A stretch of 21,723 nt of DNA from contig JAUXGM010000017.1 of the NCBI GenBank assembly GCA_030622125.1, positions 1 to 21,723 of the forward strand. The letters run 5' to 3'. Below the pieces are notes generated by a model, which saw only the letters and a program-made list of their open reading frames with translations, did not search any database and was not told the DNA's origin. Of this stretch, positions 10,768-15,350 are shown piece by piece (position 1 is the stretch's first letter; the number at the start of each line of letters is the position of its first letter). Both the position numbers and the translations under genes were made by a program. Origin of the DNA: a bacterium. GTDB taxonomy: Bacteria; AUK180.

Positions 10768-11997
10768 ATGAAGACGGTAATCAAAAATCTAAAAAAGATC
10801 TATACATCCGAAGGTAAAAATGCTCTTACCGGTAGCGACCAAAACACAGTTAGAATATACTGCAATAACGATATTGAAATAGAAAATGGCATAATAAAAA
10901 AAATTACTCCTAACATCTCCACAGAAAATGATGTCCATATCATTGATGGGCAAGGTTGCATTGCAATTCCCGGTTTTGTTGAATCGCATACCCATCCGAT
11001 CTTTTTCGGAACGAGAGAGGATGAGTTCGTAAATAGGATCAAAGGGATCGATTATGAAAAAATGACAGAAAAAGGCGGAGGCATAAATTACAGTATTAAA
11101 AAAACAAGGGACGCTTCCGATAAGGAATTATCAGATACATTAAAAAGAAATATAAGAAAATTTATTAAAAATGGTGTTACGACCTTTGAGGCAAAATCAG
11201 GGTATGCTCTCACAAAAGAGGGTGAACTGCGTCTTTTAAAGATATTAAATCAATACAAACAGGAAACCGAACTCGATATGAAGATAACCTACCTTGGCGG
11301 ACACCTTTTACCAAAAGGAAGAAAAAAAGATGACTTTATATCAGAGGTGATTGAAACGATAAAGATCGTCGGACAAAGAGGTCTTGCAGATTATTTTGAT
11401 GTGTGGGTAGAAAAAATTGCATTTAACAGAGATGATGCAGCCCTGATGATAAATGAAGCATTGAAAAATGATCTTAAGATACGGATACATACAAATGAAC
11501 TTTCCTGTTTTGGAGGTGGGCTTCTTGCTAATGATCTTGATATTTCTTCATTTGATCATTTTGATTTTTATAGTGAAGAGGAATTGAATATCATTGCAAA
11601 AAAAGGAATAAATGTAACATTACTTCCATTAACACAATTCTCGCTTGGAGAAGAAAATTATCCCAATGGGAAAAAATTGATAAAAAGGCATATTCCCATT
11701 TCATTGTCAACAGATTTTAATCCGGGTACATCATATTCTTCCAACATTCAATTTTTGGCACAGCTTGCTTTTCTAAAATGCAATATGAATATAAATGAAA
11801 TTATAAACGGATTAACAATAAATCCGGCGGTAAGTTTAGGACTCGGTGATCGTCTTGGTTCAATAGAAGTAGGGAAACAAGGGGACATTCTCATAATGAG
11901 TATTCCGAATTTAGAATCAATTTTTTATTCCATTGGAATGAATAACATTCTCTATACTATAAAAAAAGGAAAAATTATATATAGGAGAAATATATGA
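10768..11997 (+). CDS. hutI: Imidazolonepropionase
   Basis: This 409-residue metal-dependent amidohydrolase opens the ring of 4-imidazolone-5-propanoate to N-formimino-L-glutamate, the third step of histidine catabolism. The metal site is formed by HTHPIFFG (the first two His), the histidine of RIHTNELSCFGG, and the Asp of STDFNPG. GGHLLP matches the family's conserved AH-x-x-P segment, and REDEF follows the first motif as in known HutI. The length equals that of the family. The Cys-Glu pair usual before this point (CE-x-x-x-F) is VEKIAF here. The gene has its own promoter with no leader, and ATGA overlap with the next gene shows an operon. Confidence 0.93.
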   Translation: MKTVIKNLKKIYTSEGKNALTGSDQNTVRIYCNNDIEIENGIIKKITPNISTENDVHIIDGQGCIAIPGFVESHTHPIFFGTREDEFVNRIKGIDYEKMTEKGGGINYSIKKTRDASDKELSDTLKRNIRKFIKNGVTTFEAKSGYALTKEGELRLLKILNQYKQETELDMKITYLGGHLLPKGRKKDDFISEVIETIKIVGQRGLADYFDVWVEKIAFNRDDAALMINEALKNDLKIRIHTNELSCFGGGLLANDLDISSFDHFDFYSEEELNIIAKKGINVTLLPLTQFSLGEENYPNGKKLIKRHIPISLSTDFNPGTSYSSNIQFLAQLAFLKCNMNINEIINGLTINPAVSLGLGDRLGSIEVGKQGDILIMSIPNLESIFYSIGMNNILYTIKKGKIIYRRNI

Positions 11998-12797
11998 AAG
12001 TAAAAAAATATTTTAGAGCAAAAAATCTTAAGGAATTTAATTCTTTGAAAAAAAAGTTTCCAAATTCAAAAATATTGGCAGGAGGAACCTATGTTTCTAA
12101 AGAAAAGAATTCCAATATTGATGTGATCATAGATATTCAGGATCTTGGATTGAATTATATAAAAAATGGTTCGGATACAATTAAAATAGGTTCTGCTACA
12201 ACTTTTAGTGAGATAATTGATGAAAAATTGAATTACTGTGATGAAATATTAACCAGGGTATCAATGCATTGCGGACCGATCACTGTTAGGAATATTGCTA
12301 CGATCGGTGGCAATATAATGGCTGGATACTATTGGAATGATACCACGCCGGCTCTTTTAGCACTTGATGCAAGACTTGTCTTTGCAGGCAAAGATAAGAA
12401 AACGGTTACTATGGAAAAATTTATTGAGAACAGAAGAAATTTCTTTGGACTTCTTTTAAAGGAGATCATAATCCCCAAAAAACTCACCGAGGGAAGGCTT
12501 TTTTACGATAGATTTTCAAGAACAGCTTCCGATATTCCAACATCAATATTTATATCTATAAAAACAAAAAAAGAAGTGAGAATTGCAATTGGTGCTGCTA
12601 CCATAAGACCGTTCTTATTAAAAACAAAAGAAATTACACCGGATTTTTTTGATAAAAAACTACTCCCGAAAATCAATGAAATAAAATTAGTAAATGATCT
12701 TCGTGGCACAAAAAACTTTAAATTAAAGATATTAAGGAGTCAGTTTAAATCGGACGGTAAATCGGGGACGGTGGTTGCAAAAGTTGCAAAATTATGA
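11994..12797 (+). CDS. Orphan CoxM/XdhB-type FAD-binding subunit
   Basis: This 267-residue protein is of the molybdopterin dehydrogenase FAD-binding family (the medium subunit of CO dehydrogenase or xanthine dehydrogenase). Both FAD motifs are present: AGGT at 29-32 and TIGGN at 103-107. WNDTTPALLALDA follows, then the C-terminal CO-deh domain ending in DLRGTKNFKLKILRSQF. In known enzymes this subunit passes electrons between FAD and NAD+ in a complex with a 2Fe-2S protein and a large Mo subunit. Neither is encoded here. ATAGGAG precedes the ATG, which overlaps the hutI stop. The last roughly 11 codons lie in the left inverted repeat of the transposon, so the native C-terminus has probably been replaced. 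Its role in histidine use is unknown. Confidence 0.85.
   Translation: MKVKKYFRAKNLKEFNSLKKKFPNSKILAGGTYVSKEKNSNIDVIIDIQDLGLNYIKNGSDTIKIGSATTFSEIIDEKLNYCDEILTRVSMHCGPITVRNIATIGGNIMAGYYWNDTTPALLALDARLVFAGKDKKTVTMEKFIENRRNFFGLLLKEIIIPKKLTEGRLFYDRFSRTASDIPTSIFISIKTKKEVRIAIGAATIRPFLLKTKEITPDFFDKKLLPKINEIKLVNDLRGTKNFKLKILRSQFKSDGKSGTVVAKVAKL
12764..12788. repeat. Left 25-bp inverted repeat of the transposon
   Basis: It begins GGGGACGGTGG and is followed by two tandem copies of GTTGCAAAA (12774-12791, partly beyond the repeat). TTGCAA-AAG-TTGCAA (12775-12789) can form a small hairpin next to the GGGGACGG guide-like sequence. It is identical, in inverted orientation, to 13668-13692. It also encodes the end of the FAD protein and contains the transposase -35 box. 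Confidence 0.9.
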
Positions 12798-12803
12798 TAT
12801 AAT
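12775..12803 (+). promoter_or_regulatory. Transposase promoter, -35 box inside the left repeat
   Basis: TTGCAA (12775-12780), 17 bases, TATAAT (12798-12803), with a second overlapping TATAAT at 12803-12808. The transposase ATG starts at 12809, 6 bases after the first -10 box, so the message would be leaderless or nearly so. There is no Shine-Dalgarno. Translational coupling to the FAD gene stop at 12795-12797 is an alternative. Confidence 0.55.
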
Positions 12804-12808
12804 ATAAT

Positions 12809-13651
12809 ATGGCAAGAAGAGCAAGAATTGATTTAAAAGGTCATTATTATCATGTAGTTTGTAGAGGACAGAGAAAAAATCCGCTTTTCTTTTCTCCCGA
12901 TGATAGACAAAAATATTTTGAAATAATTAATGAACTTCTAATGGAAACAGATATAGAACTTTATGCGTATAGTCTAATGACCAATCATGTTCATCTTGAT
13001 ATTTTTAGAAATGAATATCCACTTCATAAGTTTATGAGTAGATTAAATACTAAATATGCTCTATACTTTAATAAAAAATACAATCTTGTTGGACATGTAT
13101 TTCAAGGGAGATACAAGTCATTTATTGTTCTGGACAATTCTTATTTGGTATATTTAATAAAATATATTCACTTGAATGCGGTTAGAGCAGGTATTGTTAA
13201 AAATCCTGGTGAATATAAGTATTCCAGTGCAAAATTTTACGAAGGTGGAAAAGAAAAAAATATATTCAGCATTAAAAAACTACCAATATTTAAAGATAAA
13301 AATAAGTATTTAAAATTTATGAATTCTGAAGTGGCTGAATATCCTATTTACAAAGATTCAATTGGAAATAAGGATATCTATCTTTTTTTTGAAAAAAGAA
13401 AACCGGGAAGGGAAAAATCTAAGTTTAAAGAGAAAAGAAAGCAAAAAATCAATATTAAAAAAGAATTAAAAAATATTTTAAAAAAAAATAAAATTCAATA
13501 TGAAACATTTATTCATACAAAATTTTCCAGAAAAAATAAAAAATATAAACAATTTGTATTTAAGAAATTAATAAAATTAGGATTTACACAAGCGGATATT
13601 GCAAGGTTAATGCAGTGTAATAAGTCTACTATTGGGAGGATATTAAAATGA
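12809..13651 (+). CDS. REP-associated tyrosine transposase (Y1_Tnp family)
   Basis: This 280-residue HUH-type single-strand DNA transposase starts [20 protein letters not shown], the typical start of REP-associated tyrosine transposases. The metal-binding HUH motif is H60-V61-H62 in NHVHLDI. The catalytic tyrosine is probably Y119 in the [11 protein letters not shown] segment (119-128). [11 protein letters not shown] (94-104) is also characteristic. After about residue 195 comes a Lys-rich stretch, and the end (259-279, [20 protein letters not shown]) is a helix-turn-helix likely to bind DNA. The frame is intact and all key residues are present, so it may be active. It lacks a ribosome binding site. 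It is an insertion in the hut block and is not part of the pathway. Confidence 0.92.
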
Positions 13652-13667
13652 TAACATCATTAAAAAA

Positions 13668-13692
13668 TGCAACTTTTGCAACCACCGTCCCC
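13668..13692. repeat. Right 25-bp inverted repeat of the transposon
   Basis: It is a perfect inverted copy of 12764-12788, ending in CCACCGTCCCC. It lies 16 bases after the transposase stop and 8 bases before the hutU ATG. It occupies the position where a hutU Shine-Dalgarno would be, and none is seen. Confidence 0.9.
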
Positions 13693-13700
13693 ATGGCAAC

Positions 13701-15350
13701 ATGAAAGGGAAGAGACCCGTAAGAGCGCCAAGAGGTACAAAATTACATTGTAAGAATTGGCAGCTTGAAGCTCCAATGAGAATGTTAATGAATAATCTTG
13801 ATCCCGAGGTAGCAAAGGATCCGGATAATTTAATTGTTTATGGCGGAACAGGAAGGGCGGCAAGGAATTGGAAATGTTTTGATAAGATAGTCGAAACACT
13901 TCAAAAAATGGATGAGGCTGATACGCTTTTGATCCAATCCGGAAAGCCTGTCGCTGTTTTTAAAACAAATATATGGGCACCAAGGGTATTGATAGCAAAT
14001 TCACTTATAGTTCCGAAATGGGCTACTTATGAATATTTTAAGGAACTTGAAGATAAGGGACTTACAATGTATGGACAGATGACTGCCGGTTCATGGATAT
14101 ATATCGGTACACAAGGAATCTTACAGGGTACTTATGAAACCCTTAGAGCAGTTGCAGAATCTTCCGGCGGCAGTTTAAAGGGGAAATGGGTGCTTAGTGC
14201 CGGTCTTGGTGAAATGAGTGGAGCTCAGCCGTTGGCGGTTACGATGAATGAAGGTGTTTCAATAATTGTTGAAGTAAATAAGAAAGCAATTGAACGAAGA
14301 ATAAAAGATAGATATCTTGATACCTGGACAGACTCACTTGATAAGGCACTTCAAATGAAGGACGAAGCAATAAAACAGGGAAAGGCGACCTCAATAGGGC
14401 TTTTAGGAAATGCTGCCGATGTCGATAGTGAACTTGTAAAAAGAGATATAACACCCGATATATTAACGGATCAAACCTCTGCTCACGATATGTTAAACGG
14501 CTACTATCCGATGGGCTATACATATCAAGAAGCGGAAGAATTAAGAAAGAAGGATTCCGAGCTTTATTTGAAAGAATCATACAAAACGGTAGCAATTCAA
14601 ATGAGGGCAATGCTTGAAATGCAAAAAAAAGGTGCCTCAACATTTGATTATGGAAATAATATTAGGGCACAGGCGGAAAAAGCCGGTATAAAAGATGCCT
14701 TTGATATTGTCGGCTATGTTCCAAAATATATACGAAAATTCTTTTCAATAGGAAGCGGACCTTTTAGATGGGTAGCACTTTCAGGTGATCCCGACGATAT
14801 CTATAAAACCGATGATGCATTATTAAAGACTTTTCCTGAGAAAAAACATTTAAGAACCTGGATAAATATGGCAAAAGAAAGGGTTGCATGGCAGGGCTTA
14901 CCTGCGAGAATATGCTGGCTTGAGAATAGAGAAAGAGCAAAGATGGCTCATGTAATGAACGATATGGTAAGAAAAGGTGTTGTGAAAGCACCTATTGTTA
15001 TTGGCAGGGATCACCATGATTCCGGTTCCGTAGCAAGCCCGAATAGAGAAACGGAAGGAATGAAAGACGGTTCCGATGCAATAGCGGATTGGCCGATTTT
15101 AAATGCTTTGCTTTCAACTTCATCGGGAGCAACATGGGTTTCCGTTCATCATGGCGGCGGTGTTGGAATCGGTTATTCCATTCATTCGGGGATCGTGGTC
15201 GTTGCCGACGGGAGCGATCTTGCCGATCAAAAAATAGAAATAGCACTGAATAATGATCCCGCAAGTGGTGTTGTCAGACATGCAGACGCCGGATATAAAC
15301 TGGCTATTGATAGAGCAAAAAAGGATAAGATTTGGACACCAATGTTATAG
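13701..15350 (+). CDS. hutU: Urocanate hydratase (urocanase)
   Basis: This 549-residue NAD-dependent lyase adds water to urocanate to give 4-imidazolone-5-propanoate, the substrate of HutI. It is full length compared with bacterial urocanases. RAPRGT (8-13) is near the N-terminus as usual. [11 protein letters not shown] (47-57) begins the NAD-binding part, [12 protein letters not shown] is at 136-147, TDQTSAHD at 256-263, and FDYGNN at 315-320. The family active-site cysteine is C405 in [27 protein letters not shown] and [10 protein letters not shown] are conserved. The ATG at 13701 fits family N-termini, but no ribosome binding site precedes it because the transposon end is there. A 3-codon ORF (ATG at 13693) ends overlapping the hutU ATG. 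The 3' end overlaps the next gene. Confidence 0.95.

Follow-up and report, generated by a model that had tools for sequence, protein, structure and literature searches.

TIRYT/TIRtron elements and their GGGGWSAS motif were named by Di Nocera et al. (2013; PMC3733652), and Quentin et al. (2018; PMC6006769) placed the TIRYTs in subclass 2.1 of the TnpA_Y1 proteins, a subclass present in about 15% of genomes, and noted in them a DnaA-like helix-turn-helix (HTH). The latter authors considered that this HTH perhaps has no role in target recognition, because the arm motif does not resemble DnaA boxes. Direct repeats or tandem iterons in the arms are mentioned in the text of neither study. The element described here occupies positions 12,764–13,692 of the window, i.e., the whole 21,723-nucleotide stretch of bacterial DNA that was analyzed, and fits the described TIRYT/TIRtron group (TnpA_Y1 subclass 2.1) rather than a RAYT flanked by REPs. 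With a probability of about 0.68, it is a small HUH (Y1) transposon of the TIRtron type, with two separate recognition codes in its inverted ends. This end anatomy and the two-module reading derived from it appear to be new within the literature searched, where an earlier notice of the iterons is possible.

The element and its transposase

The whole element measures 929 bp (12,764–13,692), its outer limits agreeing with those of sister elements and gene-less MITEs, whose homology stops at the terminal tag. The preliminary description had reported perfect 25-bp inverted repeats around a Y1 transposase gene, and these lie exactly at 12,764–12,788 and 13,668–13,692, are complementary at 25/25 positions and stand 879 nt apart. 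The gene between them, rightly described as intact, is an unbroken open reading frame of 280 codons (12,809–13,651, plus strand), encoding a Y1 HUH transposase of 280 aa (Pfam PF01797; Y1_Tnp match of 54 bits), while its match to NCBIfam REP_Tyr_transpos falls under the model cut-off. The protein contains the motifs NHVH (residues 59–62), GHVFQGRY and Y119-IHLNA, with A replacing the usual P in this copy; residues H60, H62 and Y119, the latter being the predicted catalytic tyrosine, are conserved in the enzyme and its homologs, and the tyrosine motif is of the Y---N type, as opposed to Y---Q in IS200/IS605.

In the AlphaFold model of the transposase (pLDDT 89), the core is most similar among PDB entries to 4er8, the REP hairpin-bound E. 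coli RAYT, with Z 16.7 across 156 residues. The C-terminal 75 residues (13,424–13,648, plus strand), predicted alone with pLDDT 81, form a five-helix HTH domain nearest to DnaA domain IV, with VIA-align scores of Z 8.1, 6.8 and 6.6 against DnaA structures 8btg, 3pvp and 1j1v, respectively. Foldseek returned no match below E 0.001 for the HTH domain alone; the likeness to DnaA therefore rests on the VIA-align values (Z 6.6–8.1) and on Pfam Bac_DnaA_C, which matched 11 of the 33 homologous C-termini, HTH_23 matching 21 of them. By sequence, the HTH is weak in the window copy and clear in its homologs, which, together with the predicted model, bears out the C-terminal HTH claimed previously.

Upstream of the gene, a candidate −10 hexamer TATAAT (12,798–12,803, plus strand; consensus scan) follows at 17 bp from the TTGCAA of the left arm, so that the two together resemble a sigma-70 promoter with 10/12 consensus matches; promoter-like matches in this region were no more numerous than in shuffled sequences, and this single good match is to be taken as a lead only. 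The outer flanks of the elements are AT-rich, with T at position −2 in 35 of 41 arms, and no target-site duplication was seen at the window copy.

Organization of the terminal arms

In the left arm, read on the plus strand, an 11-bp tag GGGGACGGTGG (12,764–12,774), common to sister elements L009 and L010 and to the MITEs, is followed by iteron 1 TTGCAAAAG (12,775–12,783) and its 9-bp direct repeat, iteron 2 TTGCAAAAT (12,784–12,792, direct reading), so that the end is spelled GGGGACGGTGG-TTGCAAAAG-TTGCAAAAT. At the right end, the same order is found on the minus strand, with the tag GGGGACGGTGG at 13,682–13,692 (recognized by arm complementarity and by the genome-wide arm search), iteron 1 TTGCAAAAG at 13,673–13,681 (direct reading) and iteron 2 TTGCATTTT, degenerate past TTGCA, at 13,664–13,672 (minus-strand reading). 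The tag at either end is the proposed cleavage or guide part, which the HUH domain would read.

The arms had previously been likened to REPs in a guide-plus-hairpin layout, with a small TTGCAA-AAG-TTGCAA hairpin beside GGGGACGG. For each homolog, the left arm of the best inverted repeat flanking the gene was compared with dinucleotide shuffles, in set 1 (50 arms), in set 2 (30 arms from named GTDB loci with enzymes of at least 270 aa) and in set 3 (38 arms from other genomes). Direct repeats were strongly enriched at lags 7, 8 and 9 in set 1 (z 5.1, 11.9 and 10.3, respectively; ≤1.2 at the remaining lags), at lag 8 in set 2 (z 10.0) and at lags 7 and 8 in set 3 (z 10.6 and 8.7). No excess of hairpins over the shuffled arms was found, folding being significant at p < 0.05 in 3/50, 3/30 and 1/38 arms, respectively. 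Because direct repeats of period 7–9 are enriched and hairpins are not, each arm is best read from its sequence as the tag GGGGACGGTGG followed by a tandem pair of 9-bp iterons, TTGCAAAAG and TTGCAAAAT. Folding of the ends as single-stranded DNA, suggested in the preliminary description as a check, gave −4.3 and −3.0 kcal/mol for the window ends (z −3.1 and −2.2), whereas the ends of L009 and L010, which bear the same tag, remained at 0 kcal/mol. The hairpin proposed earlier thus exists thermodynamically, but it is better explained by the tandem iterons, the unit of which is itself palindromic; the interpretation of the ends as REPs and of GGGGACGG as a REP guide was not borne out.

Throughout the family, the outermost 8–11 bp of the ends are conserved as the tag, which reads GGGGACGGTGG in the window element and GGGGTCAGG or GGTGCCAGG elsewhere in the family tree. 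The next approximately 18 bp consist of two tandem, element-specific iterons of 7, 8 or 9 bp, and the spacing between tag and iterons is almost constant, amounting to 9–10 nt in 48 of the 76 arms that were scored. The repeat period varies by tag class, being mostly 7 with GGGGTC-type (TC) and 8–9 with GGGGAC-type (AC) tags. At one end of L009 (L009:2369–2419), three extra 9-bp units (TGTAAAAAT, TGTAAAAAT and TGTAAAAAA) were seen past the two iterons; the number of iterons therefore varies.

In a sister class of shorter enzymes of 256–257 aa, mostly from clostridial MAGs, 6 of 9 cases show ends that form a hairpin whose loop holds the tag, and the method is therefore able to detect hairpins. 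Several loci (L185, L190, L196, L197, L214, L222, L228 and L229), mostly belonging to 256–257-aa relatives, display a hairpin such as GGAAGCA...TGCTTCC around a GGGGACGTTC tag. Use of this class as a control lacking the HTH was abandoned, because an HTH-like stretch is present at the C-terminus of these proteins too.

Covariation of protein domains and end sequences

Partial Mantel tests, which can be anticonservative, revealed modest covariation between the two parts of the ends and the two domains of the enzyme. In the 40 elements of set 1, iteron similarity was correlated with HTH similarity given the N-terminal domain (r 0.203, p 0.0005), and correlation of the iteron with the N-terminal domain given the HTH was absent. 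With 57 elements, the pattern for iteron and HTH was the same, and tag similarity went with the N-terminal domain (r 0.363, p 0.0005) and not with the HTH. The independent set 3 (23 elements) reproduced both associations (iteron and HTH, r 0.153, p 0.022; tag and N-terminal domain, r 0.338, p 0.0075), and in this set, taken by itself, there was also a correlation of the iteron with the N-terminal domain (r 0.245, p 0.001). For all 78 elements, the values were r 0.185 (p 0.0005) for iteron and HTH given the N-terminal domain, r 0.081 (p 0.03) for iteron and N-terminal domain, r 0.395 (p 0.0005) for tag and N-terminal domain given the HTH, and r −0.065 (p 0.93) for tag and HTH given the N-terminal domain.

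Where the nearest neighbours by HTH and by N-terminal domain were discordant, the iteron sided with the HTH in 26 cases against 13 (sign test on 78 elements, p 0.027); the corresponding tag test on all 78 elements (21 for the N-terminal domain versus 14) and nearest-neighbour tests on subsets were not significant. Taken together, iteron similarity following the HTH and tag similarity following the catalytic domain suggest a two-module recognition of the ends.

Copies, sister elements and mobility

Allowing up to three mismatches, the arm was found at seven places in the 2.08-Mb genome (192 contigs) and at none in the reversed control. Two of the seven are the window's own arms. C17 and C51 each carry a further exact copy; the very beginning of C176 matches exactly as well, but it overlaps the end of C51, so that this third match and the C51 copy probably represent one locus. 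The genome search proposed in the preliminary description thus showed that the end sequence recurs beyond the window; a single copy, named there as counter-evidence, was not the outcome. A looser arm pattern matched 76 places versus 11 in the control. On C17 (L001:83–139), a second tag copy CCACCGTCCCCATTTTTTA directly follows the arm, as though two elements or ends had landed adjacent to each other.

The genome encodes five homologs of the transposase, and the three other full-length ones also lie between inverted repeats, whose inner sequences differ. The end of L009 reads GGGGACGGTGG-TAGAAAAAG-TAGAAAAAT, that of L010 GGGGACGGTGG-TTAGTTTGA-TTAGTTTAC, and that of L011 is of the GGGAC...CTC type. 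A scan of GTDB contigs with the single protein gave no matches, and a scan with a seven-row alignment yielded 80 named loci, the transposase relatives among which come from uncultured bacteria and one WOR-3 MAG; searches of other phyla returned few genomes. Terminal inverted arms surround the gene in about 50 homologs, and no inverted repeat was detectable around the intact homologs L013 and L018.

Most homologs within one genome are divergent rather than identical. L010 (window genome G000, contig C140) and L052 (genome G002, contig C75, from another genus of the family) share 95.3% identity over 774 bp, which stops at the tag (CCGTCCCC(A) and CCACCGTCCCC(A)), with different flanks on either side, consistent with a likely recent transfer between genera, both genomes being MAGs in which assembly and binning errors are possible. 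Other homologs common to these two genera mostly show only 72–75% DNA identity.

Three gene-less MITEs of about 200 bp (on C34, C40 and C50) carry the exact left end of L010, are mutually alignable and occupy unrelated sites; similar-looking arm pairs were found with TTGATTTTG on C91 and with TAGAAAAAG on C45. The TTGATTTTG iteron family comprises C91:4789–4984 (L085), C29:4226 (L078), C114:1958 (L087) and C182:874 (L093), including one paired element of about 200 bp, and no transposase with ends of this family was seen in the window genome. About ten single copies of the arm-like sequence GGGGACGGAG[AT]TTAATATTGTTTT (C34:25778, C103:18494, C103:26443, C114:13615, C116:24, C132:12855 and others; L122, L125–L134) had no obvious paired end or cognate transposase.

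These sequence comparisons provide good support for movement of the family; for the window copy, it is the end sequence alone that was found elsewhere in the genome. The earlier proposal of a mobile RAYT framed by two inverted REPs and moving as a unit accordingly survives in part: the enzyme is RAYT-like, the ends are inverted, and the family moves and mobilizes gene-less copies, but the reading of the ends as REPs is not supported. The perfect identity of the arms had also been taken as a sign of recent movement or strong constraint; the inference of recent movement does not hold, since the vertically inherited relative L048, at an orthologous site (92% collinear with L050 over 3.2 kb), still has arms matching at 29/29 positions.

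Genomic surroundings of the element

The element is located at a gene-order breakpoint in the histidine-utilization region. On its left, the gene of a FAD-binding oxidoreductase subunit (11,994–12,797, plus strand) stops inside the element's left end, with the last ten codons and the stop contributed by the left arm; in relative G001, the FAD protein ends in ...ISQYREWKEK and the gene of the 2Fe-2S subunit overlaps its end. On its right, hutU (urocanate hydratase; 13,701–15,350, plus strand; TIGR01228, 914 bits) starts 8 bp past the right end and has probably been deprived of its own ribosome-binding site. In four relatives, the FAD subunit gene comes after hutI, and where the gene order could be read, the 2Fe-2S and molybdenum-subunit genes come next; in the window genome, the 2Fe-2S gene is located on a separate contig (C25), where it follows an ABC-transporter-like gene. 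In G001 and G002, hutU is preceded by an lptG-like permease gene. This separation of hutI and the FAD gene from the 2Fe-2S gene, together with the different upstream neighbour of hutU, places the element at the breakpoint; the relatives lack it at this site, but their gene order differs on both sides, the locus having been rearranged.

Discussion

In the favoured interpretation, the DnaA-like C-terminal HTH would bind the iterons as duplex DNA, bringing the enzyme to its own ends only, and the N-terminal HUH domain would then nick at the tag through Tyr119 and join strands, by analogy with TnpA_REP and IS608 TnpA. How a strand-specific HUH enzyme deals with inverted ends is genuinely puzzling, since on either strand only one end presents the tag in the cleavable sense; either annealing of the arms or action on both strands could be envisaged. 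More speculatively, in a single-stranded form of the element, such as the lagging-strand template, the two inverted arms could anneal, which would rebuild duplex iterons and place both tags at a junction. HTH binding to the left-end iterons would also repress the transposase gene, an autoregulation proposed because the TTGCAA of left-end iteron 1 can act as a −35 element. For TIRYT-type HUH transposons in general, the balance tips in favour of a catalytic-domain tag combined with tandem 7–9-bp iterons, read as duplex by the DnaA-like HTH in place of folded single-strand hairpins, so that a change of HTH would re-address the enzyme to new ends.

It is unlikely that the iterons serve solely as an operator for transposase autoregulation, the tag alone being used for end recognition. 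Left-end iteron 1 does overlap the 10/12 sigma-70-like promoter, and within the arm the tag shows the strongest conservation and goes with the catalytic domain, but the iterons are retained at the right end, which has no transposase promoter, and in the gene-less MITEs. Quite unlikely, too, is a mobile REPtron, the ends of which would be short REPs (a GTGG foot and a TTGCAA stem-loop) recognized folded and single-stranded, as by E. coli TnpA_REP or IS608. GTGG immediately precedes the TTGCAA hairpin, the folding energies and z-scores of the window ends make hairpin use in this one member possible, and the catalytic core is nearest to the RAYT–REP complex 4er8. Against this stand the same-tag ends of L009 and L010 at 0 kcal/mol, the lack of hairpin enrichment in the 50, 30 and 38 arms of the three sets, and the failure of Quentin et al. 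(2018; PMC6006769) to find REP-like sequences for subclass 2.1; the GT[AG]G foot with a conserved stem-loop that serves as the REPtron criterion is likewise lacking, GTGG and hairpin occurring in the window copy and not in its sisters.

An immobile, domesticated gene, with arms persisting as a fixed relic or as a chromosome-structure element, is highly improbable. The divergence of most homologs within a genome, the vertical inheritance of L048 and L050 at one site, and the statement of Quentin et al. (PMC6006769) that such proteins are not associated with typical IS features would agree with it, but a 95% identical cross-genus element with sharp ends, the MITE families, the many arm copies, and the position of the window copy in a junction where relatives lack the element all argue against it.

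If correct, the two-module reading of this TIRtron would describe an unusual HUH transposase addressed by duplex words, which might provide a single-strand nickase that is modular and retargetable, and it bears on the published question of the purpose of the HTH. TIRYTs form a large branch of the Y1 enzymes, and their end-finding, their movement and the role of their HTH become testable through the tag-plus-iteron anatomy, which is repeated in three sets and, through the iteron, allows many of the short inverted repeats of such genomes to be assigned to a particular enzyme.

Among the known systems, IS200/IS605 elements (IS608, ISDra2) share the HUH/Y1 chemistry and fold (Z 8–10), but they have subterminal hairpins, no terminal inverted repeats and no HTH, whereas the window element has perfect terminal inverted repeats. 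RAYTs (TnpA_REP; PDB 4er8) have the same catalytic fold (Z 16.7), the HUH motif and tyrosine, and inverted flanking sequences, and their REPINs are comparable to the gene-less copies found here; the window family differs from them by the lack of a conserved GTAG/hairpin REP, by the extra HTH domain and by ends coded in direct repeats. DnaA domain IV, the best fold match of the C-terminus, binds 9-bp boxes, i.e., recognizes words of approximately the same length (~9 bp) as the iterons, but the latter differ from element to element and show no match to TTATNCACA, and likeness of fold is not proof of equal function. Closest are the TIRYT/TIRtron elements, which likewise combine a RAYT-like HUH/Y1 enzyme, inverted repeats in place of REPs, a GGGGWSAS-like motif, a C-terminal HTH (DnaA_C/HTH_23), low copy number and families of arm copies in the genome: the window's GGGGACGG has one mismatch to GGGGWSAS (7/8 fit), the GGGGTCAG and GGGGACAG of its relatives fit fully, and the class 2 motifs of TIRYTs (NHVH, FQ, YIHLNP-like) are present in the window enzyme, with A for the usual P.
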